From NCBI GenBank assembly GCA_021414245.1, contig JAIOOU010000003.1, forward strand, positions 434,001 to 498,000: a DNA stretch of 64,000 nucleotides. Direction: 5' to 3'. Below the pieces are notes generated by a model. It was given only the letters and a program-made list of their open reading frames with translations. It was not told the origin of the DNA and searched no databases. Each line of letters opens with the position of its first letter. The first letter of the stretch is position 1. Source of the DNA: Chloroflexota bacterium. Its GTDB lineage: Bacteria; Chloroflexota; Anaerolineae; Anaerolineales; Villigracilaceae. This document shows positions 19,085 through 62,115 of the stretch, one piece after another. The position numbers and the translations under genes are program-made.

Positions 19085-20464
19085 ATGACAACCCTCCTCG
19101 TCAAGAACGCACACATCGTAAGCATGGACGACCATCAGCGGGAAATTCCCGAGGGTGGTCTTTTTGTTCGAAACGGGATCATCGAAGAGGTCGGCCCGAC
19201 CCGCGATCTTCGTTCCAGTGCCGATGAAGTCCTCGACCTGACCGGTCATATCCTGCTGCCCGGTCTGGTCAATACCCATCACCATTTTTATCAAACCCTC
19301 ACGCGTGCCGTCCCGGCCGCCCAGGATGCCAACCTGTTCAACTGGTTGAAAACCCTGTATCCCATTTGGGCGCGCCTGACTCCCGAGGATATTTTTATTT
19401 CGACTCAGACCGCACTGGCCGAGCTGGCCCTTTCGGGCTGTACCACCGCATCGGATCATCTCTACCTTTTTCCAAACGGTTCAAAGCTGGACGATGAAAT
19501 TGCCGCAGCCTCCGAGATCGGGATGCGCCTGCAGGCATCGCGCGGCTCGATGAGCCTGGGCGAGTCCAAAGGCGGACTCCCGCCCGATTCAGTGGTTGAT
19601 ACCGAAGAGAACATTCTCAAGGATTCGCAGCGCCTGATCGAAAAATATCACGACGCCAAACCCGGCGCGATGACCCAGATCGTGCTTGCACCTTGTTCGC
19701 CGTTCAGCGTCACCTCGGACCTGATGAAACAGTCTGCGAAGCTGGCGCGCGAATACGGCGTGCATCTGCATACACACCTTGCCGAAACCGAAGACGAGGA
19801 ACAATTCTGCATGAAAATGTTCGGTCACCGGCCGGTGGGATACATGCAGGAAGTGGACTGGGTCGGCAGTGACGTGTGGTTCGCACATGCGGTCTGGGTG
19901 AATGACGAGGAGATCCAGGTCTTCGCCAAACATGACTGCGGCGTGGCGCACTGTCCCACCTCAAACATGCGCCTGGCCTCCGGCATTGCGCCCGTCAGGC
20001 AATACCGCGCCGCCGGCGTGAACGTCGGCTTGGGCGTGGACGGCTCCGCTTCCAATGACGGTTCGCATTTGCTGGGAGAGGTCCGCAACGCCATGCTGCT
20101 CTCGCGGCTTAAGGAAGGCATTACCGGTTATTCCTTGTCCGCCGACCCGGATCGAAAATTGATGACGGCCCGCGAAGCGCTGCACCTCGGCACCCGTGGG
20201 GGAGCGGCCGTGCTGGGCCGCAACGATATCGGCAGCCTGGAAGCCGGCAAATGCGCCGACTTCTTCGCGGTCAATTTGAACAAACTCGGCTACGCTGGCA
20301 TGCATGATCCCGTGGCGGCGGTTGTCTTTGGCCAGCCGGTCACCGTGGATTACACTGTGGTCGCCGGAAAATTTATTGTCAGGGAAGGCCGGCTGGTGAC
20401 GGTGGATGAACATAAGCTGGTGGAAAAACACAACCGGGCCGCAAAACGATTATTGGCAGGATAA
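19085..20464 (+). CDS. 8-oxoguanine deaminase-like / SsnA-type amidohydrolase
   Basis: 459 residues, amidohydrolase superfamily. The metal site is visible: NTHHHFYQTLTR (His-x-His near residue 65), HLHTHLAETEDEE (about 220), the HAVWV histidine at about 265 and the GLGVDGSASNDG aspartate at about 320. The HHHFYQTLTRAVP and LPGLVNTHHH pattern is the one of 8-oxoguanine deaminases and the related SsnA proteins found with selenium-dependent molybdenum hydroxylases. The reaction would be hydrolytic deamination of an oxidised purine or relative to ammonia and a urate-type product. It starts the purine region, directly behind a promoter and palindromic operator. Confidence 0.85.
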   Translation: MTTLLVKNAHIVSMDDHQREIPEGGLFVRNGIIEEVGPTRDLRSSADEVLDLTGHILLPGLVNTHHHFYQTLTRAVPAAQDANLFNWLKTLYPIWARLTPEDIFISTQTALAELALSGCTTASDHLYLFPNGSKLDDEIAAASEIGMRLQASRGSMSLGESKGGLPPDSVVDTEENILKDSQRLIEKYHDAKPGAMTQIVLAPCSPFSVTSDLMKQSAKLAREYGVHLHTHLAETEDEEQFCMKMFGHRPVGYMQEVDWVGSDVWFAHAVWVNDEEIQVFAKHDCGVAHCPTSNMRLASGIAPVRQYRAAGVNVGLGVDGSASNDGSHLLGEVRNAMLLSRLKEGITGYSLSADPDRKLMTAREALHLGTRGGAAVLGRNDIGSLEAGKCADFFAVNLNKLGYAGMHDPVAAVVFGQPVTVDYTVVAGKFIVREGRLVTVDEHKLVEKHNRAAKRLLAG

Positions 20465-37829: not shown

Positions 37830-37857
37830 CTCCGTGTCTCAGTGCCTCCGTGGTTAA
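37830..37857 (-). repeat. Right arm of inverted repeat flanking the GxxExxY gene
   Basis: On the minus strand it reads TTAACCACGGAGGCACTGAG then ACACGGAG, matching the left arm at 37331-37360. It ends about 5 bases before the ribosome site of the molybdenum subunit gene. Confidence 0.75.
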
Positions 37858-37876
37858 ATTCTTTGAGGAAAAGATT

Positions 37877-40837
37877 ATGGACAATAAAATTTATCTTACC
37901 GTTAACGGCGCCAAACATACAATCGATGCCCTTCCCGGTGAGACACTCTCCACCCTCCTCCGTGAGCGATTACGCCTGACCGGAACAAAGATCGGATGCG
38001 GCGAAGCGGAGTGCGGCGCATGTACTGTTCTTGTGGATGGCGAACCGATCATGTCGTGCGTTTACCCTGCCGCGCGTGCGGATGGGAAAACGGTCGTAAC
38101 CATTGAAGGCCTTGCAGGAGAATTTACCGCGAAGGACGCAACACTTGCACCTGCGGCAAGTGCAGGTGAGGAAGAACAATTAAACCTTAGCGATCTTGGC
38201 GCTCTTAGCGGTGCAAAAGCTCTTCATCCCTTGCAGGAAGCCTTTGTCGAACATGGCGCCGTACAGTGCGGATTTTGCATCCCGGGCCAGATCATGACGG
38301 CGCATGCCCTGCTCAAACATAATCCGAATCCAAACAGCGATGATATTCGCTTTGCGTTGAAGGATACGCTCTGCCGTTGCGCGGGCTATCCAGCCATCGA
38401 GAATGCCATTATCGCCGCCGCTGAATCCCTGCGGACAGGGGAGCCTGTCAGGAAGCCGAATATTCCAGATTCAATTCACGAACATCGATCGGTTGGACAC
38501 ACACATACCCGTCACGATGGCGTGGATAAAGTCATTGGCAGCGCAGTCTACACGGATGATCTCGTGTTCGACGGCATGTTGTATGCCAAAGCCAGACGCG
38601 CGATGATTCCGCATGGTTTTTTGACGAAGCTGGATATTTCCAAGGCAAAGGCATTGAAAGGTGTTGTTTCAGTTTTAACTGCGGAAGATATCAAAGGCGA
38701 AAAGAACCACGGTTTGGTCATTTACGACTGGCCTGTGTTGGTGGGGATCGGGGAACGCGTGCGCTATGTGGGCGATGCCATTGCCATCGTGGCGGCAGAG
38801 ACTCAAGAGATCGCCGAGCAGGCGTCCGCGTTGATTGAGGCGGAGTTTGACCTACAGCCTGTCATCACGAATCCGGTCCAGGCCCGTCAGGAAGGTGTTC
38901 CGCAGCTTCATGAAAAGGGGAATTTGCTCAAGCACATCAAGGTCCGCAAGGGCGATATGGACAAAGGTTTCGCCGAGTCTGATGTGGTCCTCGAACACAT
39001 GTTTCATACCCCCACCACCGACCATGCCTTCCTCGAACCCGAATGCAGCATTGGTGTGCCGCTGCCCGATGGCCGCATGGAGATTTACTGCGGCTCGCAA
39101 ATTCCGTATCAGGATCGAACACAGGTGGCGCGCGCAATGGGCTGGCCCGAAGAACGCGTGCGGGTGATCGGGCAGTTGATGGGCGGCGGCTTTGGCGGCA
39201 AGGAGGACATCATGGGGCAGATCCATGTCGCCATGCTGGCGGACGCCACGCAGCGCCCCGTGAAATTATTGTTCGACCGTCATGAAAGCCTGCTTGTGCA
39301 TCCGAAGCGGCATGCCACGCAGATTCGCGTGAAGATCGGCGCGAAGAAAAATGGGCGCATCGTGGCGTGTGAATCGGAACTGTATGGCGATACAGGTGCG
39401 TACGCGTCACTCGGTGAAAAGGTGATGACCCGTGCCACCACGCACTCGGCCGGTCCGTACGACATTCCAAATGTGCGCGCCGATTGCTACGCCATGTATA
39501 CCAACAATCCGCCCGCGGGTGCGTTCCGCGGTTTCGGGGTGACCCAATCTGCGTTTGCGGTTGAGTCGATGATGGACATGCTGGCTGAGAAATTGAATGT
39601 CGAGCCTGTCGAGTTGCGCCGAATGAATGCACTGCACGTGGGCAGCATCACCAACACGGGACAGGAATTGCGCGAGTCGGTCGGTTTGACGGAATGTATT
39701 GACCGCGTGGATGCGGAGATGCGCAAGCACAACCCGAATCCATTTGTGCCGAGAGTTGTTGCTGCGGGACAGGACGAGCAATCAACCGCGAAGGACGCTA
39801 AGAAAGAAGAAAGAGGAAAGAATCTTGGTGCTCTTGGCGAGCTTCGCAGTTCAAAAGATTCTCACTTGGTGCGCGCCTGGGGATTTGCCGCAGCTTATAA
39901 GAACACGGGACTGGGCGGCGGCGCGCCCGACATCTCCGGCGCGGACGTGGAGTTGTACGAAGACGGCACCTTTCAGGTCCGCAGCTCCTCCGCCGAAATG
40001 GGGCAGGGACTCGTGACCGTCATGCGCACCATCGTCGCGGAGGAAATGTCCGTATCGCCTGAAAAAGTGCGTGTGCTGGTGATGGACACGGACCTGACCC
40101 CGAACGGCGGCCCAACGACCGCATCCCGCCAGACTTTTGTCACAGGCAATGCTTCACGCTATGCGGCGAAAACTTTACGTGAAGAAATCACTGCAACGAT
40201 GGCGGAAAAATACGATGTGCGCCCCGAGCAGATCCGTTTCGAGAATGGCATTATGCATGTCAACGGACATTCGATGTCGTATGCGGATGTGTATCGGGAA
40301 ATGAATGCCCTCGGAAAGCAACCCAAAGTCCGTTACGTCTATGAAGCGCCGAAGACTCAACCGCTTGGGACAGGCGGGGACATGCACTTCGCATTCTCCT
40401 TTGGCGTACAGGCTGCCGAGGTGGAGGTCAATAAGCTGACGGGTGAAGTTCGCGTGTTGAAGGTCATCTCCGCCAATGATGTGGGCATGGCGGTCAATCC
40501 GCTCGGCCTGCAGGGACAGGTCGAAGGCGGCGTGATGATGGGCCTCGGCAATGCGCTCACCGAGGAATTCATCATGGAGGATGGCAATGTGGTCACGGAC
40601 CACCTTGCGCGATACCGCGTCCCTGGCATCATGCTCACGCCGGAGATCACTTCCATCATTGTGGAGCATCCTGTTTCCACGGGGCCGTATGGAGCCAAGG
40701 GCGTGGGCGAGATATGCAGCATCCCTACCACGCCCGCCATCACGAACGCGATTTACAATGCGGTGGGAGTGCGGGTGTTCAAGACGCCTGTCGATCAGGA
40801 GTTGATCGCAAGGGAAATTTGGGAACGGGAGAAGTAA
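37877..40837 (+). CDS. Molybdenum hydroxylase, fused [2Fe-2S] and molybdopterin subunit (xanthine dehydrogenase-type)
   Basis: 986 residues from ATG 37877 with GAGG upstream. Residues 1-80 are a plant-type ferredoxin domain (CGEAECGACTVLVDGEP, later Cys 61). Residues 120-190 carry the second cluster (QCGFCIPGQ and CRCAGYP). The molybdopterin domains run from about 205, with MGGGFGGKED, PAGAFRGFG and the C-terminal GAKGVGEICSIPT, which includes the catalytic Glu. It oxidises a purine or similar heterocycle. Two peptide inserts that match genomic repeats lie at about 84-112 and 637-658 (see findings). The family includes selenium-dependent forms; no motif here settles that. Confidence 0.92.
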   Translation: MDNKIYLTVNGAKHTIDALPGETLSTLLRERLRLTGTKIGCGEAECGACTVLVDGEPIMSCVYPAARADGKTVVTIEGLAGEFTAKDATLAPAASAGEEEQLNLSDLGALSGAKALHPLQEAFVEHGAVQCGFCIPGQIMTAHALLKHNPNPNSDDIRFALKDTLCRCAGYPAIENAIIAAAESLRTGEPVRKPNIPDSIHEHRSVGHTHTRHDGVDKVIGSAVYTDDLVFDGMLYAKARRAMIPHGFLTKLDISKAKALKGVVSVLTAEDIKGEKNHGLVIYDWPVLVGIGERVRYVGDAIAIVAAETQEIAEQASALIEAEFDLQPVITNPVQARQEGVPQLHEKGNLLKHIKVRKGDMDKGFAESDVVLEHMFHTPTTDHAFLEPECSIGVPLPDGRMEIYCGSQIPYQDRTQVARAMGWPEERVRVIGQLMGGGFGGKEDIMGQIHVAMLADATQRPVKLLFDRHESLLVHPKRHATQIRVKIGAKKNGRIVACESELYGDTGAYASLGEKVMTRATTHSAGPYDIPNVRADCYAMYTNNPPAGAFRGFGVTQSAFAVESMMDMLAEKLNVEPVELRRMNALHVGSITNTGQELRESVGLTECIDRVDAEMRKHNPNPFVPRVVAAGQDEQSTAKDAKKEERGKNLGALGELRSSKDSHLVRAWGFAAAYKNTGLGGGAPDISGADVELYEDGTFQVRSSSAEMGQGLVTVMRTIVAEEMSVSPEKVRVLVMDTDLTPNGGPTTASRQTFVTGNASRYAAKTLREEITATMAEKYDVRPEQIRFENGIMHVNGHSMSYADVYREMNALGKQPKVRYVYEAPKTQPLGTGGDMHFAFSFGVQAAEVEVNKLTGEVRVLKVISANDVGMAVNPLGLQGQVEGGVMMGLGNALTEEFIMEDGNVVTDHLARYRVPGIMLTPEITSIIVEHPVSTGPYGAKGVGEICSIPTTPAITNAIYNAVGVRVFKTPVDQELIAREIWEREK
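38126..38212 (+). repeat. Palindromic repeat copy A, in frame within the molybdenum subunit gene
   Basis: 87 bp (29 codons), beginning ACCGCGAAGGACGC and ending CTTGGCGCTCTTAGCGGT. Terminal arms ACCGCGAAG / CTT(A)GCGGT are inverted. It encodes TAKDATLAP through DLGALSG, sitting in the linker between the two iron-sulfur domains. Confidence 0.8.
39785..39850 (+). repeat. Palindromic repeat copy B, in frame within the molybdenum subunit gene
   Basis: 66 bp (22 codons), beginning ACCGCGAAGGACGCTAAG and ending CTTGGCGAGCTTCGCAGT. It encodes TAKDAKKEERGKNLGALGEL. Same frame and same orientation as copy A. Confidence 0.8.
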
Positions 40838-49331: not shown

Positions 49332-50138
49332 TCAGCTTCCCTTTTGGCCGGTCCATTTTTTGTAAACAGCCTGCAATTCTTTGAGTCTGCCGGGGCTTTC
49401 ATTGGCCAGCAAAAGGGTCATGCCGAAAACGATCAGGATGTTTGTAATGAAAAAGAAAACCACCTCTTCCAGAGGCAGGATCCCGAAGTATAGAATACCC
49501 GTCGTCTGTCCTTTTGAGATCGACCAGGTTGTTTCCGAGAGGGCGACAATATCCATTAATGACAGGTAGATGCCGGGAATGAGGATGCCAAGCGTGACGA
49601 GCTTGCGATGATGCCAGAGGATATCGGCTCCATAAATCACCTGGGGCAGGATCGCGGGCAGGGCCCAAAAAAGCGTGATCGAAAGATAGGTAAGCGGATC
49701 GGCACCGTTAAAGAAGATTATTGTGAAAATGATCCATGTTGTGATGAGCAGGCTTGCGGCAATGACGCGGATTTTTTGATTGGGCATGAATTCCTGCGCG
49801 GGAGCGGCCAGCCGCCGGGCCAGAAACCACCACCACAGCCCGCTCAGGATGGTTTCGACCACAAAGAAGGTATATTCCTCGATGGGTACATAGCCAAGGA
49901 CAAGCCCGGTGACGAGCGAAGGGTTGTAATACCATACACCTGTCGCCACCAGATAGTTATCCCATGGAGTGGTGTATACGACCGCAAGGACGACATGGAT
50001 AAGGATCGCAACCCACACGGCGCGCCCATTTTGGAATCCGAGGTTGAGTTTGTTTTTTCCATTGTCCCGGAGCGTGATCAGCAGAAGGAACACGATGGGC
50101 GTAAAAAGAAAGCGAAAAAGGAATCCGAAATACGTCAT
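49332..50138 (-). CDS. Lycopene cyclase, fused CrtYc-CrtYd type
   Basis: 268 residues, about seven membrane helices. The first half matches CrtYc (PWDNYLVATGVWYYNPSLVT, GYVPIEEYTFFVVETIL) and the second repeats the pattern as CrtYd (GILYFGILPLEEVVFF). In actinobacteria the halves are separate subunits; fused forms occur in other groups and in fungi and archaea. It would turn lycopene into beta-ring carotenoids. It is the last gene of the carotenoid operon, 3 bp after the P450 gene. Confidence 0.9.
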   Translation of the reverse strand: MTYFGFLFRFLFTPIVFLLLITLRDNGKNKLNLGFQNGRAVWVAILIHVVLAVVYTTPWDNYLVATGVWYYNPSLVTGLVLGYVPIEEYTFFVVETILSGLWWWFLARRLAAPAQEFMPNQKIRVIAASLLITTWIIFTIIFFNGADPLTYLSITLFWALPAILPQVIYGADILWHHRKLVTLGILIPGIYLSLMDIVALSETTWSISKGQTTGILYFGILPLEEVVFFFITNILIVFGMTLLLANESPGRLKELQAVYKKWTGQKGS

Positions 50139-51488: not shown

Positions 51489-52039
51489 TGAAATTTTCTT
51501 TCTTCCGTTTCGATTATGAGACAGCCGGCATTCGTGGGGTGATCCTGCACGGAGGTGCCGGGTTTGATGGTCCGGATGACCCACAGGATGAGAAAATCCC
51601 CGCATGCGGCGGTCGTGTATAAAAGTCCAAACAAAAATTGCATTCCATTCGCTGTAAACAGGCTGATCAACCAGGGCACGAAGCCAAGTAAAAACCCCGG
51701 CGCGAACGAACCAATCCGGTAGGGACGAATGTCCATCGGTTCGCGGCAATGTGCATAGGGAGTGAAGGAGCTCAATTGAAAGCCAAGTTTGAAGGCCCTC
51801 AGTGACTTTTTGGCAAAGAAGGCCCATACAAACATGTGGATCAGTTCATGCACGAAGATGCCGAATAACAGCAGGAAGGCATATAAGGCCATGTCCGCCC
51901 GCGTGGGGAGTGCCGAAAATCCATTGACCGAATAAAACAAGCCGGTTTGAAGAACTGCAACCGGGATGGCGATGATCAGGGATTTGCCCGCAGCTTCCTT
52001 CATTGGAATGGAAACGTCCAGTCCGGTTTTGGTCATCAT
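51485..52039 (-). CDS. DUF3267 membrane protein with HExxH zinc motif
   Basis: 184 residues, four membrane segments. [14 protein letters not shown] in the second segment provides the HExxH motif of membrane zinc proteases, and a second element [13 protein letters not shown] fits a third ligand helix (D). DUF3267 members are related to site-2-like metalloproteases but activity is unconfirmed. It overlaps the photolyase stop and the P450 start by 4 bp each, so the genes are translated together. Confidence 0.82.
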
Positions 52040-53397
52040 TTAATCCCGATTTTCGAATGACGATAGGCGTTCATGGCCCTCTCTTTGACAATGGCACGAT
52101 CCACAATGGGCCGGGCAGGATAGTCCGGAACTTCGATACCCCATTCCCAGGGTGCATGAATCACTTTTGCATCCAGTGCGCGCAATTCAGGGACCCATTT
52201 ACGAATATACCCCCCTTGAGGGTCAAACTTTACACTCTGCAAGACCGGATTGAAGATTCGAAAATACGGCGCGGCATCCGTGCCGGTGCCGGCCGTCCAT
52301 TGCCAGCCGCCATTGTTTGCCGCAGGATCTCCATCGAGTAATTTTTCCATGAACCAGGCCTCGCCCCAGCGCCAATCGATCAATAAATCTTTTACCAAGA
52401 AAGATGCCGCGATCATTCGGGCACGATTATGCATCCAGCCGGTTTCCCGGAGCTGGCGCATGGCCGCGTCCACAATTGGCACGCCGGTAAGGCCGTCCTT
52501 CCAGGCAGCAAATTCGGATTCCTGGTTGCGCCAGGGGATGTTTGCCAGAGACAGGTTAAATGCCGTCCGGCTGACCTGCGGGAAGTGATACAGGATCTGG
52601 ATATAGAACTCGCGCCAGATGAGTTCGTTCAGCCAGGTCTCCGCTCCCTGATTTTCCTGAACGCTTCCCGCCTGACCTTGGGCCAGCTGCGCCATTCTGA
52701 CAGCCTGCCTTAATCCGAGCATTCCAAAGCGAAGATACGGCGAAAGGCTGGATGTGCCGTCCAGGTCCATGCGGTCCCTGGTTTCCCGGTAATTGAATAT
52801 CCGTCTGGATGCAAAATCTTTTAATCGTCTCAGGGCCTCTGCCTCCCCGGCCGGAAAATCTGGATTTCCTGTAAAAGCGGGAATGCCTTCGTTTTTTATC
52901 CCGGCTGGTGTGCTGATATGCCCGGGCGCAGACAACAGGTTGATTTCCCTGAGAAGGGATTTCCATATTTTTGAATAAGGTGTGAAGATCGTATAAGGTC
53001 TGCCATCGGTTTTTTTGACAAACTCAGGATGATGCACGGTTTGTCCAAGTACTAGTTGTAGCGGAAGCTGATTTGCAACTTGGGTATCCCGTTTACGCGC
53101 ATAAGGTGTGTAGTCTTCTTCAGCGAAAATGGAGTTGGCACCCGATTCCTCAACGAGTTGGCGTAGCACATCCACCGGCCTGCCGGCGCGAATGACTAGG
53201 TATGATCCGCGGGTTTGCAGGTCCTTATCTAATACTTCAAGGCCTTCGTATAGAAAATTCCGTCGGCGCTGCGATGGATTGGAAAAGGCCGGGTCGAGGA
53301 CAAAGACAGGGAGCACATCGCCCGCCTCGAGCGCGGAATGAAGCGCGGGGTTATCCGTCAGCCTTAGATCACGGCGAATCCACCAGATTGAAGTCAT
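52036..53397 (-). CDS. phrB: Deoxyribodipyrimidine photo-lyase
   Basis: 453 residues. The N-terminal alpha/beta domain begins [17 protein letters not shown]; the FAD domain contains [39 protein letters not shown], the conserved [19 protein letters not shown] and the closing [16 protein letters not shown] region with [15 protein letters not shown]. This is class I CPD photolyase layout: it splits UV-made pyrimidine dimers with near-UV/blue light. Putting it under the same control as carotenoid genes gives a light-protection regulon. Confidence 0.95.
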
Positions 53398-54014
53398 CTG
53401 GATGGAGTCTCCACTGGGCGGCCATTAATCTCAAGCTTGATCGTGTTGTCCCGATCGACTGAGAGTTTTCCGGAGTTATTTGCATTGTCGCTGAAGTTCA
53501 AAAATCCATAAGCGCGGATGCGAGTTCTGCCAATCAAGGAAAGCGCCAGTTCGCTGGTCAGCAACCCGCTTAATTCAGCCTCGTAGGATCCCGTCCGGAA
53601 ATTGAATTGGGAGGGTGCAGGCATGCCCAAACCGCGCAAGCCGATGGTGGTACCGGTAATCTCTTCATGCCCTGAAAACACATCCCCGCCGGGCATGCTG
53701 GCGCTGTAGGTGATCAAATAGTGCGGTGAGGTCGATACCAATTTTGCCGTGACCAGCGCACCAGTCTGCGGATCAGCTTCCATGATATCCGCTCCAACGG
53801 AGTTAAACTGCGGTTGATAGTAGGCGCGCCCAAAGGAGGTTGAAGAGGTCACAGCATACATGGCGATTCGCGCCAGGGCCATTTCACTTTTATTTTCAGC
53901 AAGCAATACTGAGACAGGCGTGAGCCAGTCCGTTTTGTGCATGCGGCGGACCACATATCCCAGCAGGGTGATCCCGGCTGGAGGCAATTCATAGCGAGTG
54001 ATGCTGTCAGACAT
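53394..54014 (-). CDS. Conserved protein of unknown function in the carotenoid operon
   Basis: 206 residues, no signal peptide or membrane segment. Beta-rich in appearance ([38 protein letters not shown]). I do not recognise the family. Its start codon context and tight placement between the MFS exporter (10 bp) and the photolyase gene (4-bp overlap) make it a real gene. A soluble lipid- or pigment-related role is conceivable only because of the operon. Confidence 0.7.
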
Positions 54015-54024
54015 GATTCGCTTT

Positions 54025-55245
54025 TTAATCCGCCGCCGGAGCGTGAGCGGTCTTGTTTTGATTCAAGGTAAACACGATCGGATGGTTGAAGATTTTCCGA
54101 AAAATAAAGATGCTGATGCCGGTCATAAGCACCGCACCGAACATTCCGGGCGCCCAGGTGCCGATCTGTTGCAGAAGCAGGCCGCCAAGCAGCGGGGCGA
54201 TGATACGGGTTGAACTTTCCACTGCAGCTGACAACCCGAGAATGCCGCCAATTTCCTGCGGGGCGACCGCTTTTGTTAAAGTACTCGACAGCAAAGTATT
54301 CAATAATCCGCCGGAAAGGGCGGTGGGGGTCATGATGATATACAGCCAGATCAGGGAGGGTGCCAGTGCCCAGCCGAGCAGCGATATACCCATCAGGACG
54401 GCGGAGAATGTAATCAGCAGATCCTCCCGGAATCGAGTGGTGAGGCGTCCCACCAAAAAACCCTGGACGATCACGGACAAAACCCCCACGTAAGTCAATA
54501 CAAAGCCGGTGTCACGGGCGGTGAGGTTGAACTTGGCCAGTGCGTACAGGGAAAAGATGGTCTGGAAGATCGCGAAAGCCAGGCCGAAGAAAAAACGCGT
54601 GATCAGGATCGAGCCGGTGAATGGGCGTTGAAAAGCCACCCATAATGCTTTCAACGTTACCGCTGGTCTCTTTTCCGTCATTTGGCTGCGTTTCTCATCG
54701 GTCAGCGATTCTGGCAGCCATGCATAGATCAAGACCAGATTGATGAAGGAGATCGCGGCGGCTGCAAAAGCGGGAACCGCATAGCCCCATTGGCTCAATA
54801 ACCCGCCCGTGACCGGGCCAATGATGAAGCCGAGACCGAAAGCGGCGCCGATCATTCCAAGACCCCTGGAGCGGCTTTTTTCATCGGTCACATCCGAGAT
54901 GTATGCCTGGGCTACACTTAAATTGCCCCCGGTCAATCCATCCAGAATCCGGCTGGCAAAAAGCATCCAAAGGGAGTTGGCGAAACCGAGCAGCAGGAAA
55001 CCAAGGAAGGTGCCAAATATACTCAGCAGCAGGACCGGGCGGCGTCCGAAGCGGTCAGAGAGGCGGCCAAGGATCGGGGCGCCGATCAGTTGCATCAGGG
55101 CATACGATGCGATCAACAGGCCGGTGGTGGTCTGGCTGGCATTAAAGGTCTTTGCATAATACGGCAGCAGGGGCAGGATCAGGCTGAAGCCCAGCAGGTC
55201 GATAAACACCACCAGAATAATGGAGAAGAGACGTTTGTTATTCAT
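54025..55245 (-). CDS. MFS transporter (TetA/MdtG-like exporter)
   Basis: 406 residues, twelve membrane helices. Loop 2-3 carries GAPILGRLSDRFGRRPVLLL, the MFS signature A, and helix 5 has the exporter motif C region (GAAFGLGFIIGPVTGGLL). The family exports drugs or metabolites with proton exchange. Its cargo is unknown; a pigment precursor or siderophore cannot be excluded. Confidence 0.9.
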   Translation of the reverse strand: MNNKRLFSIILVVFIDLLGFSLILPLLPYYAKTFNASQTTTGLLIASYALMQLIGAPILGRLSDRFGRRPVLLLSIFGTFLGFLLLGFANSLWMLFASRILDGLTGGNLSVAQAYISDVTDEKSRSRGLGMIGAAFGLGFIIGPVTGGLLSQWGYAVPAFAAAAISFINLVLIYAWLPESLTDEKRSQMTEKRPAVTLKALWVAFQRPFTGSILITRFFFGLAFAIFQTIFSLYALAKFNLTARDTGFVLTYVGVLSVIVQGFLVGRLTTRFREDLLITFSAVLMGISLLGWALAPSLIWLYIIMTPTALSGGLLNTLLSSTLTKAVAPQEIGGILGLSAAVESSTRIIAPLLGGLLLQQIGTWAPGMFGAVLMTGISIFIFRKIFNHPIVFTLNQNKTAHAPAAD

Positions 55246-55255
55246 TGTTTCCTTT

Positions 55256-56113
55256 TTATTTCAAGTATTTGGAGCGATAGGCTTCCTGATAATGCAGCTC
55301 AAATTCAATGTCCTTGCCGGTTTTGGTGAGATTCTCCCAGGCAACCTTCAGCAGACCGAGCAGGGGAGTCCATGGCTTGAATAATTTGATTTCAGAGAAT
55401 TCCTGATTATGGCTGGATACGGCTTTCACCAATTTGGCTGAAGCATGCCCGGCGGGCTGGCCGAGGAAGCGCAGAACGAATCCGAAGTTCTTCAGCATTT
55501 CCTTTCCGCGTTCGCCGATCACGACCGGGCTGGTAAGCATATCGGTTGTCATCATGCCAGGGCTGAAACCGAGGATCTGTATTCCGCTTCCCCTTAACTC
55601 GACCGCAAGACTGCGTGTAAAGGAGCTGATCCAGGCTTTGGTCGCGCCGTATAGGCCGGTTGGAGAGGCGGGCCGTAAAAAACTTCCATTTCCATAAATA
55701 TTGACCAACAGCCCCTGCCTGCGGGGCAGCATGTAGTGCATGATCGCCTGCGTACAACGCAGGGTGCCGAGGTCGTTGGTGAGAAACATGTCGAGGGCAT
55801 CCAACGGATCCATCTCCAGCATCAAGCCGGCGGCATTCGAGTAGCCTGCATTATTGATCCAAATGTCAATGCGACCAAATTCCTTGAGGACATCCTCGAC
55901 CAGTTGATAAATCTGCTCCTCTTCGCGAACGTCCATCACGAATCCGCTCACACGACCCTTAGGCTGTAAGCCGGCCAATGCGCCATCCACTGCCTGACGG
56001 CTTCTGGCGGTAATGGCGACGACAGCGCCCGCCTCAAGGAAGGAATTGGCAATCGCATATCCGAATCCGCGCGATGAGCCGGTCACTACAACGATCTTAT
56101 CCTTTAACTCCAT
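55256..56113 (-). CDS. Short-chain dehydrogenase/reductase
   Basis: 285 residues from ATG 56113 with GGAG 5 bases upstream. Rossmann start VVVTGSSRGFGYAIANSF (TGxxxGxG), NNAG motif in WINNAGYSNAAG, catalytic GLYGATKAW (Y-x-x-x-K) at about residue 155. NAD(P)-dependent alcohol or keto oxidoreductase of unknown substrate. In a carotenoid operon a ring-oxidising step is possible, but SDRs are too varied to conclude. Confidence 0.9.
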   Translation of the reverse strand: MELKDKIVVVTGSSRGFGYAIANSFLEAGAVVAITARSRQAVDGALAGLQPKGRVSGFVMDVREEEQIYQLVEDVLKEFGRIDIWINNAGYSNAAGLMLEMDPLDALDMFLTNDLGTLRCTQAIMHYMLPRRQGLLVNIYGNGSFLRPASPTGLYGATKAWISSFTRSLAVELRGSGIQILGFSPGMMTTDMLTSPVVIGERGKEMLKNFGFVLRFLGQPAGHASAKLVKAVSSHNQEFSEIKLFKPWTPLLGLLKVAWENLTKTGKDIEFELHYQEAYRSKYLK

Positions 56114-56198
56114 GCTTCTCCTTCGCAGAAAAATGCGCTGTTTGAAAATACTTCGGGCCATTTTGCATTAGATCGACCTGTCCAATTTCAGTTTTGGA

Positions 56199-56684
56199 TT
56201 ATTGTTGAACCCGTTCCAGGTTAATTCGATTAAGCAGTTCAAGAATTTCCTCATTGGCTGGAATATCACTGGAGCCGCTGCTGTAATGAACATAGCGTGC
56301 CACTCCGCATCTGTCTATGATCATCTGGGCCGGGACCCTTCCAAATTTGAAGAGGTTGACCTCCTGACCGTATAACTTCAGAACACTGAGGGTCGGATCC
56401 GGCAGGCCCGGGAAGGGCAGATCGTGTTTTTGCCAGTATCCGGCAAAAGAGCCGGCATCTTCACGCCCAATGACCAGGATTTCCGTATTCACTTCAACAT
56501 ATTTGTCGTATTGCTGACGCAACTGCGCCATGTGGTTTTGGCAGTGCCGTCAAAACAAACCGCGATTGAAGATCAGGAGTACATTCCTGCGGGCATGATA
56601 ATCAGCCAGTCTGATCTCCCTCCCATGGAAATCCTGCAAGATGAATTCAGGGGCGGGTTTGTTAAGTTCGATGCGGGTGCTCAT
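56199..56684 (-). CDS. Peroxiredoxin (AhpC/TSA-like), candidate selenoprotein with in-frame TGA
   Basis: Reading through one TGA at 56550-56552 gives 161 residues from ATG 56684. The N-terminal part (MSTRIELNKPAPEFILQDFH, VLLIFNRGLF) and the C-terminal part (RHCQNHMAQLRQQYDKY, LPFPGLPDPTLSVLKLYGQE, GRVPAQMIIDRCG) together form a complete AhpC/TSA-type protein; relatives have the peroxidatic Cys exactly at the TGA (codon 45), giving a U-x-x-C motif with Cys48. The frame is intact on both sides and translationally coupled to the upstream gene. A 38-base hairpin starts at the TGA. Decoding as selenocysteine is favoured; a mutation of Cys TGT/TGC to TGA is the alternative. Confidence 0.75.
56515..56552 (-). 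promoter_or_regulatory. SECIS-like hairpin at the in-frame TGA
   Basis: On the minus strand TGACG pairs with CGTCA at the base (56548-56552 with 56515-56519); after a 2x2 internal loop, ACTGC pairs with GCAGT. Total length 38 bases with the UGA at the foot of the stem, similar in placement to bacterial selenocysteine insertion elements. The apical loop differs from the E. coli type. Confidence 0.55.
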
Positions 56685-56687
56685 GTT

Positions 56688-57029
56688 CTAGATGACCAGA
56701 ATAATGCCGAAGATGACCTCAACCGTCAGGCTGACCCAGTTTGAAGTAACCAGGGATTTGTCGATGAACATCGAAATGGCCCGGACGGACCCAATCCCAA
56801 GATAGGAGACGCCCAGCATGGTATAGGCAATGGGGGAGCCAGCCAGCAGAGGAAAAAGCCCCAGTGCAATGAACAGACCGCCGAAGATTGCCCGGATCTC
56901 GGTAATTCCCCGGCCGCTGAGAGAGCTGAGGCCCGTGAAGCCTGTGATGGCAGTTGGTTTGAGCATCGAGAACAGTCCGGTCAGGATGGTCGCGGCGGCC
57001 GCGATAATCTGCAAAATTTGAATAATCAT
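56688..57029 (-). CDS. DUF4345 family small membrane protein
   Basis: 113 residues, four membrane helices. The GITEIRAIFGGLFIALGLFP and MLGVSYLGIGSVRAISMFID segments match DUF4345. The function is unknown. It lies 3 bp before the peroxiredoxin gene and 20 bp after the DUF3159 gene. Confidence 0.8.
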   Translation of the reverse strand: MIIQILQIIAAAATILTGLFSMLKPTAITGFTGLSSLSGRGITEIRAIFGGLFIALGLFPLLAGSPIAYTMLGVSYLGIGSVRAISMFIDKSLVTSNWVSLTVEVIFGIILVI

Positions 57030-57049: not shown

Positions 57050-57769
57050 TTAAAAACCACGCTGTTGACCCTGCCAGGGAGCAGGCGTGTCATGCCTGTA
57101 TTCCTCGACACTGGGTCCGCGCAACTGTCTCAACCGCCGCGTGCCATATAAATAACTGGCGATCAAAAGCAGGATGGTTGCCGGCCAGCCAGTCAAAAAA
57201 TTTGAAACTGCAAGTTGATCGATGTATTTGTGATCAAATAATGAAAATTGTAGATATAGGCGCGCCGCAAAGAACAAGGCCCAGGCCAGCGTAACTTCGC
57301 TATAAGCAGGCCGCACCAGAGGATGCCAGTACCAATCCAGAGGCCAGCGGCGGGCGATGTAACTGGTCCATGCCACCATGGGCCGGCGGATCAAAAGACT
57401 AACAATGGTCAGGAGCAGGGTCATGCTGCCACTGATCAGGCCGGGCAGGAAAAAGGCTTCCGATCTCCCCAGCCACCATGCAATGACAATTGCAATTCCC
57501 ACACTTCCGGCGCCTGCCAGGGAATACAGCAGGGATTGTTTCCTCAAAATGCGTAAAATTGCGAATCCCATTGAAACGATCAAAGCACTGCCCATGGCTG
57601 CCTGAAATCCCAGCAGTCCATTGACCAGCAGGAAAATGAGTGGTGGAAGGATTGCGTCGAGAAAGGAATTGCGTCCCGTCAGGAAAGAGCTGAGCTCCTC
57701 GAGCAGCTCGTGCAATTTATCCGGTTTTTCATCCGACCCGGCTAATTGATGTTCATGCATGTTTTCCAA
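57050..57769 (-). CDS. DUF3159-like membrane protein
   Basis: 239 residues, five or six membrane helices. DAILPPLIFLLVNGLLGFQA, LIRRPMVAWTSYIARRWPLD and a WYWHPLVRPAYSEVTLAWAL region follow the DUF3159 pattern known mainly from actinobacteria. The role is unknown. The start overlaps the end of the upstream DUF1475 gene by 17 bp. An N-terminal charged 40 residues precede the first helix. Confidence 0.72.
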   Translation of the reverse strand: MENMHEHQLAGSDEKPDKLHELLEELSSFLTGRNSFLDAILPPLIFLLVNGLLGFQAAMGSALIVSMGFAILRILRKQSLLYSLAGAGSVGIAIVIAWWLGRSEAFFLPGLISGSMTLLLTIVSLLIRRPMVAWTSYIARRWPLDWYWHPLVRPAYSEVTLAWALFFAARLYLQFSLFDHKYIDQLAVSNFLTGWPATILLLIASYLYGTRRLRQLRGPSVEEYRHDTPAPWQGQQRGF

Positions 57770-58079
57770 GCCAGAATAAACGCCAGTCGTTTTTGCTTTT
57801 TTGAAGGGCGATGAAAGTGTACAGACTGCCCGCGAAAAAACCCAGGGTCATCATGGCGATTGTCCATAAGATGGCAGACAGGCTGGATTTTTCCCGATAG
57901 ATGATCCAGGCGGAAAAAAGCATGAAGCCGGTGTACAAGTCGACCAGGGATACAATACCCCACGGCATGGAAGCCAGCCGGGCACCCTCCTTCGCGAAAT
58001 CACCGATGGTAAAGCCATAGATCAGCACCGCGGTCATGGACAAAATGCCCAATATGGAAATGAATTTAGCAAGTCGCAT
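57753..58079 (-). CDS. DUF1475-like small membrane protein
   Basis: 108 residues, three membrane helices. SMPWGIVSLVDLYTGFMLFS is the recognisable part of DUF1475. It lies 33 bp after the CarH-like gene in the same operon. No function is established. Confidence 0.72.
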   Translation of the reverse strand: MRLAKFISILGILSMTAVLIYGFTIGDFAKEGARLASMPWGIVSLVDLYTGFMLFSAWIIYREKSSLSAILWTIAMMTLGFFAGSLYTFIALQKSKNDWRLFWLGKHA

Positions 58080-58112: not shown

Positions 58113-59438
58113 TCACGCTTCCCGACCGGCCTGTACCCGCAGCCAATGCTTGATCGGTTCACCCTGGCCGTTGATATGCCTGTCGACCGCCTGGGAGTAA
58201 TTATTCATAAAATCAACCAGCTCCTGGGCGGGCCTTTCATGGGATTGAAGCAGGATCTTCAACCATTCCATTTCATTGGTGACGTGTTCCATGTCGCCAA
58301 GCTGCAAGGCTGCTGCAATATTGTCTCCAAGGAATTGTATACCGGTGTTGATACCTTCCGGGCTTGGTAGAAAGGGCGGGATCATTTCCTTGACGGTGCT
58401 TTCAATGTGGGTACGTTTCGAAACAAAGGCTTGGTGCGCCGCCAGATATTCCTGGGATGCCGTCCTGAGTTGATGAGGAACGCCTTTACCCTTAAGCAGC
58501 TTTTCGACTTCCTCCAGGGAAGACCCGATGGTGTCTCCAAGGTAATTTCCCGGGATATGGTCGACAATATCCGGCCGAATGATGAAAATACGCCCCCCAA
58601 AACTGACCGGAATGCGCAAGCCAGTGAGGGCCAGTGCCGTCAACTGCAGGGCGGCAGAACTTGCCAGAGTCTGCGAAACAAGTATGACCAGATTGGCTTT
58701 AACCGAGGAAACGGTCTCTTCGAAGCGATCCGTTGGGACATTGGCTCCGAGGTAGATCACATTAAGTCCACGGCGGCGGAGAAGCAGGGCCAGCAGCAGA
58801 GGTGTAAAGGTGTGCCATTCATTGGGAGGGCAGCCCACCAGCACGGTTTGATTCCGGGAAGGGGCAGGAGAGGCGCTCAACAATGCATCCAGCCGGCGCA
58901 TGGCCAGGCCGGAAGCAAAGTGTTCCTGCTGCACGGAGGCCTTGTTGGCATACCAAAGGCTGCCGATCTCGACCATGCCCTTTTGCAGGATTTCCATGCA
59001 GACTGATTCAACGGGAAAAATTGAAAAGGCCTGATTCAGTACCTGCTCTGAACCTGCCTCGCTGAACTTCATGCAGGCCGCGATCCATTGCGCCCGCAAA
59101 ACTTCCAGATTTGTTTCCATCGAGGCCGATAAGGCAAGAGTTGTTTGAGAGGATGGCAATGCCGAAGGGGCAACATCAGCCAGCGGGTCCAGGCTGGAAC
59201 CGGTTTTTTCGTTCCACAAATCCACTGCCCGAGAGATCGAGAGTCCCTCGGCCTGACGGGCCAGCAGCCATTTAATTGTCTCAATATCATATTGTGAGTA
59301 AAGACGATGACCTCCTGCCGTGCGCTGCGGCATGGGCAGACCATAGCGTCTTTCCCAGGCGCGCAAAGTGTCGGCTGCAATGTTGGTCTCTTGCAGGACA
59401 GCTTTTAAGTTGTATGCAGGATTTTTGCTGAGGGACAT
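58113..59438 (-). CDS. carH: CarH/LitR-like B12-dependent light-responsive MerR regulator with C-terminal extension
   Basis: 441 residues from ATG 59438 (GGAGA upstream). MerR HTH at 8-75 (ADTLRAWERRYGLPMPQRTA, GGHRLYSQYDIETIKWLL). The B12-binding half has W162, E172-H173 and H209, spaced like W131, E141-H142 and H177 of Thermus CarH; H209 (NEWHTF) would be the lower cobalt ligand. Residue 163, corresponding to CarH H132, is Tyr. About 120 residues (320-441) extend beyond the usual CarH end. CarH forms a dark tetramer on DNA with adenosylcobalamin and falls apart in light. It should repress the divergent crt promoters. Confidence 0.9.
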   Translation of the reverse strand: MSLSKNPAYNLKAVLQETNIAADTLRAWERRYGLPMPQRTAGGHRLYSQYDIETIKWLLARQAEGLSISRAVDLWNEKTGSSLDPLADVAPSALPSSQTTLALSASMETNLEVLRAQWIAACMKFSEAGSEQVLNQAFSIFPVESVCMEILQKGMVEIGSLWYANKASVQQEHFASGLAMRRLDALLSASPAPSRNQTVLVGCPPNEWHTFTPLLLALLLRRRGLNVIYLGANVPTDRFEETVSSVKANLVILVSQTLASSAALQLTALALTGLRIPVSFGGRIFIIRPDIVDHIPGNYLGDTIGSSLEEVEKLLKGKGVPHQLRTASQEYLAAHQAFVSKRTHIESTVKEMIPPFLPSPEGINTGIQFLGDNIAAALQLGDMEHVTNEMEWLKILLQSHERPAQELVDFMNNYSQAVDRHINGQGEPIKHWLRVQAGREA

Positions 59439-59462
59439 ATGATTCTCCAAAATGGGTAATTT

Positions 59463-60998
59463 TTAATCAGATGCAGCAAGCACGGCTTTCGCCATGTTTT
59501 GCACAGATATTGTACCCATTTCCTTGAGAATTCGTTCGGTTGTTAAGCGAGCGGAAAGCAGGACAATCGGGAGGCCGGTTCCAGGGTGGGTGGAGGCGCC
59601 GGCAAAGTACAGGTTCTTATATTTGTTGTGGCGATTGTGTGGACGCAGATATCCAACCTGCCAGAAATTATGACTCAAGCCGAAAGCGGAGCCGTTCACC
59701 AGATTGAAGCGTTCTTTCCATGTTTTGGGCTGATACACGATCTCGAACTTGATGTGACTCTCCAGGTCGGTTGCCCCCATTTCCTTTCCGAGGCGGTTCA
59801 ACACGGTTTGGCGGGCCCGCTTGACGAGTGCGTCCCAATCCTGGCTGCTGCGTGCATCCAGGTGACCGACAGGCATGAGGACGTATAAAGTATCCTGGCC
59901 TTCCGGGCCGGCGGCAGGGTCAGTCCGCTTGGGTGCGTGCACATAAAAGGAGGGGATTTCGGGCAGGGTGTGCTCATTGAAGATCTTCTCAAAGGAGGCT
60001 TTGTAATCGCCGCCCAGAAAAACATTATGGTGTGCGATCTGGGGATATTCCTTGTCCACGCCCCAATAGAACATGATCGTGGAGCAGGTATAGAGTTTAT
60101 CCTCGATGAGTTTGCGGGCTTCTGCCCGATCAGGGAGCAGTTGATCATAAATATATGGAAGGTCCGCGTTGCCGACGAATAGATCTGCGTGGAACTGGCG
60201 GCCGTCTTCAAGTTCTGCGCCGATAACTTTTGACCTATCCACATGCAGGCGTTTGACCGGCGCGTTGAAAATGAATTTCACGCCAAGTTTTTCAGCCAGG
60301 GCCGTCAGCGCCAGGATGCCGGCGTACATGCCGCCCATCGGATACCAAACCCCTTCAGCCAGTTCAGTGTATTGCAATAGGGAGTAGGTGGCGGGTGCGT
60401 CATACGGACTGAGGCCCAGATACATGTTTTGGAAAGTGAAGGCGGCCTTTAATCGTTCGTCCTTAAAGAAGCGGCCTGTGTTGCGGTAATGTTTGTCAAG
60501 GGCCTTGAGCTTGAAGATCAGGGGCAGGTTGGAGAGACTGAAATATTCGAAGATATTGAAGAAGTTACGCCCCACGAATTTCTCAAGCGAGATCTTGTAG
60601 TGCCGGCTGCCTTCCGCAATGTAGTTCAGAAAACCTGTAAAGGCGGTCTTTTCCACCTTTTCCAGCTGACTTTGCATCTTGCCAATATCGGAAGTGAGTT
60701 CGAGCTGCAAGCCGTCGTCGAAGCGGACCTTGTAGGTCGGGTCAATACGACGCAGGTCGATATGGTCGCTCATCTTTTCGCCCAGGGAGGCAAAGGTCTC
60801 CTCCCAAACCTCGGGCATGAGAAACAGGGTCGGGCCGATATCGAAACGGTGTCCGTCTTTGATGATCTGATTGCAGCGGCCGCCCGGAGTGTCATTCTTT
60901 TCCAGTACGGTCACATCGTATCCATTTTTTGCCAGTCGGGCGGCAGTGGCGATTCCGCCGATACCTGCGCCAATGATTAAGGCAGTTTGTTTTTGCAT
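59463..60998 (-). CDS. crtI: Phytoene desaturase
   Basis: 511 residues, AAGGAG upstream. FAD-binding ALIIGAGIGGIATAARLAKN at the start, then EKNDTPGGRCNQI; the CrtI family C-terminal block has TGLPIVLLSARLTTERIL and GASTHPGTG. It desaturates phytoene stepwise to lycopene. It is the first gene of the long minus-strand operon and diverges from crtB. Confidence 0.95.
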   Translation of the reverse strand: MQKQTALIIGAGIGGIATAARLAKNGYDVTVLEKNDTPGGRCNQIIKDGHRFDIGPTLFLMPEVWEETFASLGEKMSDHIDLRRIDPTYKVRFDDGLQLELTSDIGKMQSQLEKVEKTAFTGFLNYIAEGSRHYKISLEKFVGRNFFNIFEYFSLSNLPLIFKLKALDKHYRNTGRFFKDERLKAAFTFQNMYLGLSPYDAPATYSLLQYTELAEGVWYPMGGMYAGILALTALAEKLGVKFIFNAPVKRLHVDRSKVIGAELEDGRQFHADLFVGNADLPYIYDQLLPDRAEARKLIEDKLYTCSTIMFYWGVDKEYPQIAHHNVFLGGDYKASFEKIFNEHTLPEIPSFYVHAPKRTDPAAGPEGQDTLYVLMPVGHLDARSSQDWDALVKRARQTVLNRLGKEMGATDLESHIKFEIVYQPKTWKERFNLVNGSAFGLSHNFWQVGYLRPHNRHNKYKNLYFAGASTHPGTGLPIVLLSARLTTERILKEMGTISVQNMAKAVLAASD

Positions 60999-61032
60999 GT
61001 TTTCTCCTTGATTGCGCTAAGACAATAAATTC

Positions 61033-61060
61033 ATTATATCTCTTGTCTACTATTTGTCAA
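61033..61060 (-). promoter_or_regulatory. crtI promoter (consensus sigma-70)
   Basis: On the minus strand TTGACA (61060-61055), a 16-base spacer and TATAAT (61038-61033). The -35 lies in the left arm of the shared inverted repeat. Confidence 0.85.
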
Positions 61061-61100
61061 GGTTTATTTAAATATTCCTTTGCAAAACCTTGACAAATAG
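61050..61100. promoter_or_regulatory. Inverted repeat, candidate CarH operator region
   Basis: Perfect 16-base arms CTATTTGTCAAGGTTT (61050-61065) and AAACCTTGACAAATAG (61085-61100) contain both -35 boxes. TTGACAAATAG is followed in register by TAGACAAGAGA on the crtI side, a spacing of 11 bases as in CarH direct-repeat operators. Confidence 0.75.
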
Positions 61101-61117
61101 GATAAATCCTGTAAAAT
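61090..61117 (+). promoter_or_regulatory. crtB promoter
   Basis: TTGACA (61090-61095), a 16-base spacer, TAAAAT (61112-61117), about 50 bp before the crtB ATG. Confidence 0.8.
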
Positions 61118-61167
61118 ACCCCTACGAAAGCAAAGTCAACCAAAAGAGAATGACGCAGGAGAACAAT

Positions 61168-62115
61168 ATGCAAGTACAGGCGAACTGGGAAAATCAACTT
61201 CTTGACCTCGCAGGTCACATTCAACACCCGTCCACCCGGCCTTTTTTTTCATATTGGGCTGGCGACGCGGCCTTGCGCAAGGCCTATCAACAGGCTTCGC
61301 TGATCACGGCCCAACACAGTAAATCCTTTCATTTTGCATCCGGTTTACTCCCGGAGGAAAAGCGCTCGGCAGCCCGGGCCTTATACGCCTTCTGCCGTAC
61401 GGTTGATGACATTGTGGATGAAGTTGAGTTAAAGAAAGACCGGGATTTTGAGCTGGATTATTGGAGGAATGTGGTTCAAACCGCTTCCAGTCCGACCGAT
61501 GACCTGATTGCCTCCGCCTGGGCGGATACGCTCATCCGATACCATATTCCGCGTCATTATGCCCTGCAGTTGATCGACGGTGTGGCCCGTGACCTTTCCC
61601 AATCCCGCTACCAGACCTTTGACGATCTCGCCACATATTGTTACGGGGTGGCTTCCACGGTCGGGTTGATGAGCATGTATATTGTCGGTTTTGAGGGTCA
61701 CGAAGCCGTTTCGTACGCGATCAAGCTGGGCGTGGCTCTGCAAATGACCAATATTTTGCGCGACGTGGGGGAGGACTACCGCAACGGACGCTTATATCTG
61801 CCCCGTGAAGAACTCGTCTTTTACGGAATTGATGAGGCCGATATCGCGGCTGGCAGGGTAACCGAACACTGGCGCCGCTTTATGAAATTCCAGATCGACC
61901 GGACCCGCCAACTGTACCGGGAATCCTGGGCCGGGGTCAAAATGCTGGAGCGCGAAGGTCAGCTCGCCATTGGTGCGGCCTCCACTTTTTACAGCGGCAT
62001 CCTGGACGATATTGAAAAACACGATTACAACGTATTTACCCGCCGGGCGAGTCTGTCGGCTTGGGGTAAGGTCAGTCGCATTCCGGGGCTTTGGTTGAAA
62101 ATACGATCGCTCTAA
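61168..62115 (+). CDS. crtB: Phytoene synthase
   Basis: 315 residues from ATG 61168, which has AGGAG 7 bases upstream; the in-frame ATG 18 bases earlier has none. The aspartate-rich motifs are ALYAFCRTVDDIVDEVE and NILRDVGEDYRNGRLYLP, which bind the diphosphates through magnesium. It joins two geranylgeranyl diphosphates into phytoene, the first carotenoid step. It is divergent from crtI under the shared control region. Confidence 0.95.
   Translation: MQVQANWENQLLDLAGHIQHPSTRPFFSYWAGDAALRKAYQQASLITAQHSKSFHFASGLLPEEKRSAARALYAFCRTVDDIVDEVELKKDRDFELDYWRNVVQTASSPTDDLIASAWADTLIRYHIPRHYALQLIDGVARDLSQSRYQTFDDLATYCYGVASTVGLMSMYIVGFEGHEAVSYAIKLGVALQMTNILRDVGEDYRNGRLYLPREELVFYGIDEADIAAGRVTEHWRRFMKFQIDRTRQLYRESWAGVKMLEREGQLAIGAASTFYSGILDDIEKHDYNVFTRRASLSAWGKVSRIPGLWLKIRSL

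Follow-up and report, generated by a model that had tools for sequence, protein, structure and literature searches.

A predicted selenocysteine-containing peroxiredoxin-like protein encoded among carotenoid and photolyase genes of a Chloroflexota bacterium

Introduction

Light-controlled carotenoid operons with regulators of the CarH/LitR type are known from Thermus, Bacillus and Myxococcus. They encode a regulator made up of a MerR and a B12-binding part, containing the motifs RxWERRY and Wx9EH, in the neighbourhood of crt genes, and TnnACA repeats are located over the -35 element. The Wx9EH motif of CarH is described in PMC9304148, where the CarH operators are given as direct repeats of nnnnTnnACAn at 11 bp spacing, overlapping -35 or -10 elements.

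Peroxiredoxin (Prx)-like proteins of pfam00578 with UxxC or UxxU motifs are listed among the known selenoprotein families (PMC9312934, PMC13188914), and the UxxC form is named "Prx-like 1" in an ocean metagenome survey (PMC2398784). The selenocysteine (Sec)-containing Prx described in these three sources carry TxxU instead. For the bacterial SECIS element (bSECIS), the published model comprises a small apical loop with a G in the first two positions, located 16 to 37 nt after the UGA (PMC13188914).

The gene run described here shares with the CarH/LitR operons a MerR and B12-type regulator with RxWERRY and Wx9EH, neighbouring crt genes and TnnACA repeats over a -35 element. Unlike these operons, it holds a selenoprotein gene, and the B12 motif of its regulator is incomplete. 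The encoded selenoprotein resembles the Prx-like UxxC/UxxU proteins, of which WP_010940744.1 is the reference, in its AhpC-TSA domain, in having Sec as the leading residue of UxxC and in the SECIS just downstream. What sets it apart is its clade, met here mostly in Chloroflexota and in part associated with genes for carotenoids and photolyase. No report on this gene or operon was found by title or abstract in the open-access literature searched.

Results and Discussion

Reading frame and in-frame TGA

The selenoprotein gene is located on the minus strand (56199 to 56684) of the window, the 64,000-nucleotide stretch of genomic DNA analysed here. Frame, Pfam match, alignments and predicted fold assign to it a product of 161 amino acids, a Prx-fold UxxC oxidoreductase with Sec at position 45. 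From 56684 to 56199 the frame is interrupted by a single TGA, codon 45 (56552 to 56550), and otherwise open; its product reads ...FNRGLF-U-RHC-QNHMAQL..., so that letters and translation agree with the intact frame and the motif U-R-H-C described in an earlier note on this DNA. The partner cysteine of the UxxC motif is encoded by codon 48 (TGC, 56541 to 56543, minus strand). When the TGA is translated as an amino acid, AhpC-TSA (PF00578) matches residues 8 to 131 of the product with 70.3 bits (cut-off 26). This match spans residue 45 and a single domain therefore crosses the TGA.

The list of open reading frames holds, in the frame of the gene, only a 110-residue ORF (56531 to 56199, from the ATG at 56531), which is the part that annotation pipelines had been expected to call. 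This ORF is what might be left of a pseudogene or truncated gene, in which the TGA would be a nonsense mutation and a 110- or 44-residue fragment, or nothing, would be made. Such a history is hardly credible, given that the same TGA occurs across many genera, that synonymous sites downstream of it are frozen within a covarying hairpin and that the Sec machinery of the genome is complete (see below). Moreover, the median dN/dS is below 1 on each side of the TGA, 0.249 upstream and 0.181 downstream (259 usable of 780 clade A pairs), a pattern indicative of purifying selection on both flanks. The flanking sequence had been noted before as well preserved in one frame, and the downstream decay that would have spoken against a functional gene was not found.

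The neighbourhood of codon 45 also stands out within the window. The window contains 92 TGA triplets preceded by 40 or more open codons and followed by 60 or more. Only one of them, codon 45, is followed by a hairpin of at least five pairs in which the loop is AGUU, AGUC, GGUU or GGUC and begins 19 to 38 nt from the U. The TGA is genuine and almost certainly encodes selenocysteine, and it is, judging by the comparisons below, virtually certain that 56684 to 56199 is a selenoprotein gene. It represents a clean case of an ORF list cutting one gene in two, settled by comparison.

SECIS hairpin

Codon usage after the TGA was found to be restricted in clade A (40 genes). Codon +8 is GCG in all 39 genes with Ala, codon +9 is CAG in all 39 genes with Gln, and codon +10 is TTG in 40 out of 40. 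The pair identities expected for these codons are 0.29, 0.55 and 0.26, respectively, and no other well-conserved clade A column with an expected identity below 0.6 exceeded an observed identity of 0.85. Codons +8 to +10 thus appear frozen at their synonymous sites. The Cys-encoding genes of the group formed by G061, G075 and G088 have ACT-CAA-CTT, TCC-CAA-CTG and GCG-CAG-CTG at these codons.

The frozen bases form a predicted hairpin (56515 to 56530, minus strand) with a 6-bp stem and an AGUU tetraloop (56524 to 56521), located at positions 29 to 32 after the U of the UGA. In 50 gap-free sequences (39 distinct 48-mers from the 40 clade A genes and 11 from the 11 clade C genes, alignment A1), 95.3% of the stem cells are paired, compared to 87.4% in shuffled alignments, and double changes were counted in 15 cells compared to 2.1; neither value was reached in any of 500 shuffles. 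A shift of the partner strand by one to three columns lowered the pairing to 21 to 64%. Double changes occur in three of the six pairs, a number that 91 of 500 shuffles reach, and 27 of the 500 gave at least as many pair types as the genuine alignment. Related sequences are able to exceed shuffles even without a structure. RNAalifold, with the alignment as its sole input, returned the same six pairs.

The AGUU loop was found at positions 29 to 32 in 39 of 40 genes of clade A, in all 11 of clade C and in 5 of 24 of clade B. In 17 of the 24 clade B genes it is located at positions 20 to 23, i.e. 9 nt nearer to the UGA, as seen in the consensus fold of 19 clade B genes (alignment A2); the five genes omitted from this alignment (L091, L092, L093, L096 and L100) all carry AGTT at the place seen in clade A. 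The loop was found at neither place in L094, L095 and L063, the last being the second UxxC gene of the source genome, in which AGCU replaces AGUU. Manual comparison with the published bSECIS rules gave, for the element in the window, the small AGUU loop, a G in second position and 25 nt between UGA and loop; the predicted hairpin fits the published bacterial SECIS model.

A different, 38-base hairpin starting at the TGA had been pointed out earlier (base stem TGACG/CGTCA, upper stem ACTGC/GCAGT). It can indeed fold (-13.5 kcal/mol), but it is not conserved. In single-sequence folding its z-score was -1.35, and 23 of 200 shuffles folded as well. Its pairing among the homologues (71.0%) equals that of the shuffles (71.0%), with one double change, and it was rejected as the SECIS.

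Selenocysteine machinery

The source genome (3.87 Mb, 17 contigs, 98% complete) encodes selA, selB, selC and selD, which the earlier note had proposed to look for. The tRNA-Sec (selC) was detected with 66.4 bits (cut-off 47) and by ARAGORN as tRNA-SeC(tca), with a length of 95 bases and a UCA anticodon. SelA was found with 457.3 bits, the C-terminal winged helix of SelB with 64.9 bits, and SelD with 350 bits in a frame that itself holds one TGA. Within the window, ARAGORN found no tRNA genes and no Rfam family was found at its gathering score.

One in-frame UGA that is read through would also be expected if this codon were reassigned in the organism, to Trp or to Cys. UGA, however, serves as the ordinary stop codon for six of the 13 genes listed for the run, the tRNA with a UCA anticodon is the 95-base tRNA-Sec and a SECIS follows the UGA, which makes a reassignment practically inconceivable.

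The SelD gene of the source genome (G000:C6:242576-243508, L060) contains its in-frame TGA in the context CAGUASKL. GACGCA-GGUUC-UGCGUC is located 3' of this TGA, by eye the same kind of hairpin as the SECIS of the selenoprotein gene.

Conservation of the TGA among homologues

A scan of named genomes, all of them metagenome assemblies, yielded 19 loci, and all 19 encode U at position 45 and Cys at position 48. The titles of 17 name Anaerolineales/Anaerolineae, Anaerolinea, Brevefilum or Chloroflexi/Chloroflexota, and those of the other two Actinomycetota and Syntrophaceae. A match better than 2e-28 was counted, among the matches listed, for 62 of 101 genomes (the source genome and relatives); 59 of these carry the TGA, and three (G061, G075 and G088) have no stop codon at this place. 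In a phylum-wide set of 400 genomes, which overlaps the 101, a match at 1e-15 was obtained for 58, and the matches listed mostly have one TGA. The relatives therefore retain the codon in large part, and since it recurs in separate assemblies, a sequencing error was rejected as its origin. These counts show that the Sec-containing clade is spread over many genomes of the Anaerolineales type.

SelA was detected in 57 of the 59 TGA-containing genomes, in some only partially at contig ends. The two fragmented genomes lacking a SelA match (G033 and G050) have a tRNA-Sec above the cut-off.

Residue 45 is U in 75 of 83 distinct aligned homologue segments, Cys in seven and Thr in one. This set comprises the best matches to the window protein and 20 stretches chosen by hand to cover both TGA and non-TGA cases; repeated segments and one match not covering residue 45 were dropped before counting. 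Three of the Cys segments belong to the group of G061, G075 and G088, two to another subclade and two are ResA-like. The alternation of TGA and Cys codons for which such an alignment had been suggested is also seen within a subclade of eight sequences (support 95/95), six with Sec and two with Cys, one of the latter from the source genome. The tree, from which three short sequences (L107, L075 and L081) were left out and which has long branches and open forks, was used for the Sec/Cys alternation in this subclade alone.

Of the genomes with Cys in place of Sec, G075 and G088 are without SelA. In G061, whose SelA is in two pieces, another homologue (L078) carries the TGA, and loss of the machinery and loss of Sec therefore do not match cleanly. 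The SelA of G061 (G061:C6:30584-31485) extends over two frames, possibly reflecting a loss of the Sec trait under way or an assembly error.

Fold, active site and family assignment

The structure predicted by AlphaFold2 from 20 sequences has a pLDDT of 88.6, with residues 109 to 114 poorly modelled. Its best structural match is Bcp1 (3drn_A; Z 22.9, rmsd 1.7, 152 residues), matches within 1 Z being regarded as ties. The whole fold is similar to that of Bcp/PrxQ and AhpE (3drn and 1xxu, Z about 22), and on the level of the fold the protein is a Prx. The active site is different. Canonical Prx have the signature PxxxT/SxxC_P, in which C_P is the peroxidatic cysteine. The corresponding stretch of the window protein is RGLFURHC, with Sec in place of Thr/Ser and Arg in place of Pro. 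In sequence alignments, Sec45 is positioned opposite the Thr/Ser of T/SxxC_P of Bcp-type Prx and opposite the first Cys of the CxxC of ResA, and Cys48 is aligned with C_P. The earlier placement of Sec at the position of the peroxidatic cysteine does not hold, as this position is taken by Cys48.

U45 and C48 are invariant in the protein alignment A3, and Cys48 also in alignment A4, which contains the window protein and 32 of 69 prepared references. Pro46 is present in 32 of the 33 rows of A4; the window protein, with Arg-His separating U from C, has Arg at this place and thus an atypical active site. Arg116 is invariant in both alignments, and its alignment with the catalytic Arg of Prx differs between matches.

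The fold and the alignment of Cys48 with C_P would also suit a true Sec-containing Prx, with Sec45 or Cys48 as the peroxidatic residue of a classic Prx cycle. This is unlikely, as Sec replaces Thr/Ser, the UxxC is aligned with the CxxC of ResA and the Sec-Prx described so far have TxxU (PMC13188914, PMC9312934, PMC2398784). Judged by its Prx-type structural matches and by the UxxC alignment, the protein combines the Prx fold with a thioredoxin-like UxxC. ResA/TlpA proteins, the second-best NCBIfam match, share the CxxC aligned with UxxC; the best Foldseek matches are Prx, the first ResA-type match has rank 13 and no export signal was seen by eye. The best NCBIfam match is NF040769 (SelL-related redox protein), to which all 33 scanned members match at 0.001; the window protein scores 60.5 bits over residues 9 to 106 only, below the cut-off of 120.

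With PF00578 above its gathering score and a UxxC motif (U45-R-H-C48), the predicted protein is by published criteria a Prx-like UxxC selenoprotein, a member of a known family and not a canonical Prx. Of the candidate new selenoprotein inside a carotenoid operon proposed before, the selenoprotein gene and the carotenoid gene run stand, but the family was already known. Within the material covered here, the novelty lies in the clade, marked by its SECIS signature, and in the link to the operon. It is probable that Sec is the attacking group in a UxxC chemistry.

Gene neighbourhood

The selenoprotein gene is part of a run on the minus strand extending from a CrtI-like gene (starting at 60998) to a cyclase-like gene (ending at 49332). 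The first gene encodes a CrtI-like oxidoreductase of the phytoene desaturase type (59463 to 60998; Pfam Amino_oxidase, CrtI from the context), followed by the CarH-like regulator (58113 to 59450), a DUF1475-like small protein (57753 to 58079; Pfam, 27.7 bits), a DUF3159 protein (57050 to 57769; 115.3 bits) and a small DUF4345 protein (56688 to 57029; 27.1 bits, cut-off 26.5), whose gene lies 3 bases ahead of the selenoprotein gene. Downstream of the selenoprotein gene, a short-chain dehydrogenase (55256 to 56161; Pfam adh_short, 138.3 bits), an MFS-type transporter (54025 to 55245), a DNA photolyase (52036 to 53397; FAD_binding_7, 280 bits), a cytochrome P450 (50142 to 51827; p450, 185.4 bits) and, as the last gene, a lycopene cyclase-like carotenoid membrane protein (49332 to 50138) are encoded. 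The transporter and the cyclase-like protein were named by eye and are conserved neighbours; in general, the names CrtI, cyclase, MFS and DUF3267 were given by context or by eye. For 53394 to 54014 no Pfam match was obtained. Phytoene synthase (CrtB; SQS_PSY, 262 bits) is encoded divergently on the plus strand (61090 to 62115); its gene is listed from a TTG within the promoter, and the true start is further in. The unusual feature of the selenoprotein gene is, according to these assignments, its context, a tight run with genes for carotenoid synthesis, a photolyase and a CarH-like B12 regulator behind a strong predicted divergent promoter.

The run was found, in whole or in part and always with the photolyase, at 11 of the 19 named loci (L011 to L021) and is missing at eight. 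At the 11 loci, the photolyase is present in all, a regulator with Wx9EH in ten (cut off in L016) and a CrtI with more than 70% identity in six. Further stretches were chosen by hand, up to 16 kb in length and several shortened by contig ends. Photolyase, crt or CarH-like genes are located near the selenoprotein gene in 6 of 22 further clade A stretches (L108, L114, L119, L121, L122 and L147), at least two of the 22 repeating named loci on the same contigs (L110 with L022 and L124 with L026); a CrtI match of 24% in L117 was excluded from the six. None of 18 clade B loci has such genes nearby (one-sided Fisher test for 6/22 versus 0/18, 0.019, uncorrected for relatedness).

The absence of photoprotection genes from the other 16 of the 22 stretches, some of them cut by contig ends, and the score of the regulator below the CarH cut-off (see below) fit a real selenoprotein whose carotenoid and photolyase neighbourhood is due to descent only, without common light control. 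We regard this as possible but somewhat doubtful. The gaps between the selenoprotein gene and its neighbours are 3 and 37 bases, clade B is devoid of the association (0/18), and two of the stretches are from other families. In L108 (6507 to 8459; the same place as L040), which comes from genome G073 of a different family within the order, the selenoprotein gene is followed directly by DUF4345, and a CarH-like gene containing WHADQASVQQEH, with WH and EWHTLP, is oriented divergently from it. In L119 (G110, another family), CarH-like, CrtI, CrtB and cyclase genes are in line with the selenoprotein gene. Therefore, the association is not just one inherited block, although 16 of 22 stretches are without it. 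L108 can also be viewed as a minimal unit of regulator and selenoprotein.

CarH-like regulator and promoter region

The predicted MerR and B12-binding regulator (58113 to 59450, minus strand) contains the recognition helix motif RxWERRY as RAWERRY and the Wx9EH motif as WYANKASVQQEH. Many CarH proteins have His after the Trp, and the window regulator has Tyr. The B12 motif D/ExHx2G/P...SxT/V...GG is incomplete: EWHTFT lacks the G/P, SQT and GG being present. The relative encoded in L040 has EWHTLP at this place. The score against NCBIfam TransRegCarH is 137.1 bits, below the cut-off of 400. The protein is hence termed CarH-like, and AdoCbl binding and a response to light would be expected of it by analogy.

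The gap between the crtI-like gene and crtB contains two divergent promoter-like sites, TTGACA-16-TATAAT (12/12) ahead of the selenoprotein run (61033 to 61060, minus strand) and TTGACA-16-TAAAAT (11/12) on the other side. A promoter scan over 5.3 kb gave six sites compared to 4.1 expected, so that only their scores and their place favour the two divergent sites. On the CrtI side, the -35 box TTGACA is one of two TnnACA repeats, the second being TAGACA at a distance of 11 bp. No other place in the window shows this arrangement, for which 0.08 occurrences would be expected by chance. Among 107 loci, the two-repeat pattern was found in four, in L015 and L021 before crtI, in L025 about 110 to 130 bases upstream of the selenoprotein gene, and in L040 between the regulator gene and the selenoprotein gene, which are divergent. 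The crtI promoter region of L018 contains TTGACA without a second TnnACA, and a stricter promoter pattern with fixed spacing to TATAAT gave no match.

In addition, a perfect 16-bp inverted repeat (61050 to 61100) covers both divergent -35 boxes, with similar spacing in L015 and L021; similarity between the two divergent -35 regions may account for part of it. From its repeats and position, 61030 to 61110 is possibly an operator of the CarH-like regulator. Light control of the run through this regulator is suggested with reserve.

Proposed function

Taken as a whole, a Sec-containing Prx-fold thiol oxidoreductase with SECIS-driven Sec insertion, encoded in a run that is perhaps opened by light, appears very probable. 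SelB with its Sec-tRNA would bind the AGUU hairpin, which lies within the coding sequence, and insert Sec at the UGA. Attack would be by the selenolate of residue 45, where the first active-site helix begins. A selenenylsulfide would then be closed by Cys48, as happens in thioredoxin-like proteins with UxxC, and be reduced by a donor of the thioredoxin type. The enzyme would probably act on hydroperoxides or oxidised thiols that arise under light and oxygen. In the dark, the run would perhaps be repressed by the CarH-like B12 regulator at the 11-bp-spaced TnnACA repeats over the -35 element; in the light, it would be opened along with carotenoid synthesis and photolyase.

On a more tentative level, the CarH-like protein of this Chloroflexota branch might act as a B12-dependent repressor of a photoprotection regulon, in which the Sec oxidoreductase would act together with carotenoids and photolyase and selenium supply would influence the tolerance towards light and oxygen. 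If light control holds true, selenocysteine would be tied to a B12-sensed photo-oxidative stress response, a link for which no report was found among titles and abstracts of the open-access literature searched.

Further selenium-linked genes

The second UxxC gene of the source genome (G000:C4:107376-107819, L063 and L128), belonging to clade B, is located between genes for an alpha/beta hydrolase and a CysS_C-domain protein. Two more subgroups of Sec-containing Prx-like proteins were observed in the same bacteria, of the types LRHLGU-xPC and VREYNU-xQC (L072 to L075, L069 to L071 and L076 to L078). Both have the same AGUU loop with other stems, and Sec and Cys alternate within the second subgroup.

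Within the window, the gene product of 19085 to 20464 was assigned as an 8-oxoguanine deaminase (678.4 bits, above the cut-off of 532). The molybdenum hydroxylase of a selenium-linked family reported earlier was recovered at 37850 to 40837, close to the model for selenium-dependent xanthine dehydrogenase though below its cut-off (760.8 compared to 830.45 bits). Both genes may belong to a cluster for purine use with a need for a selenium cofactor.
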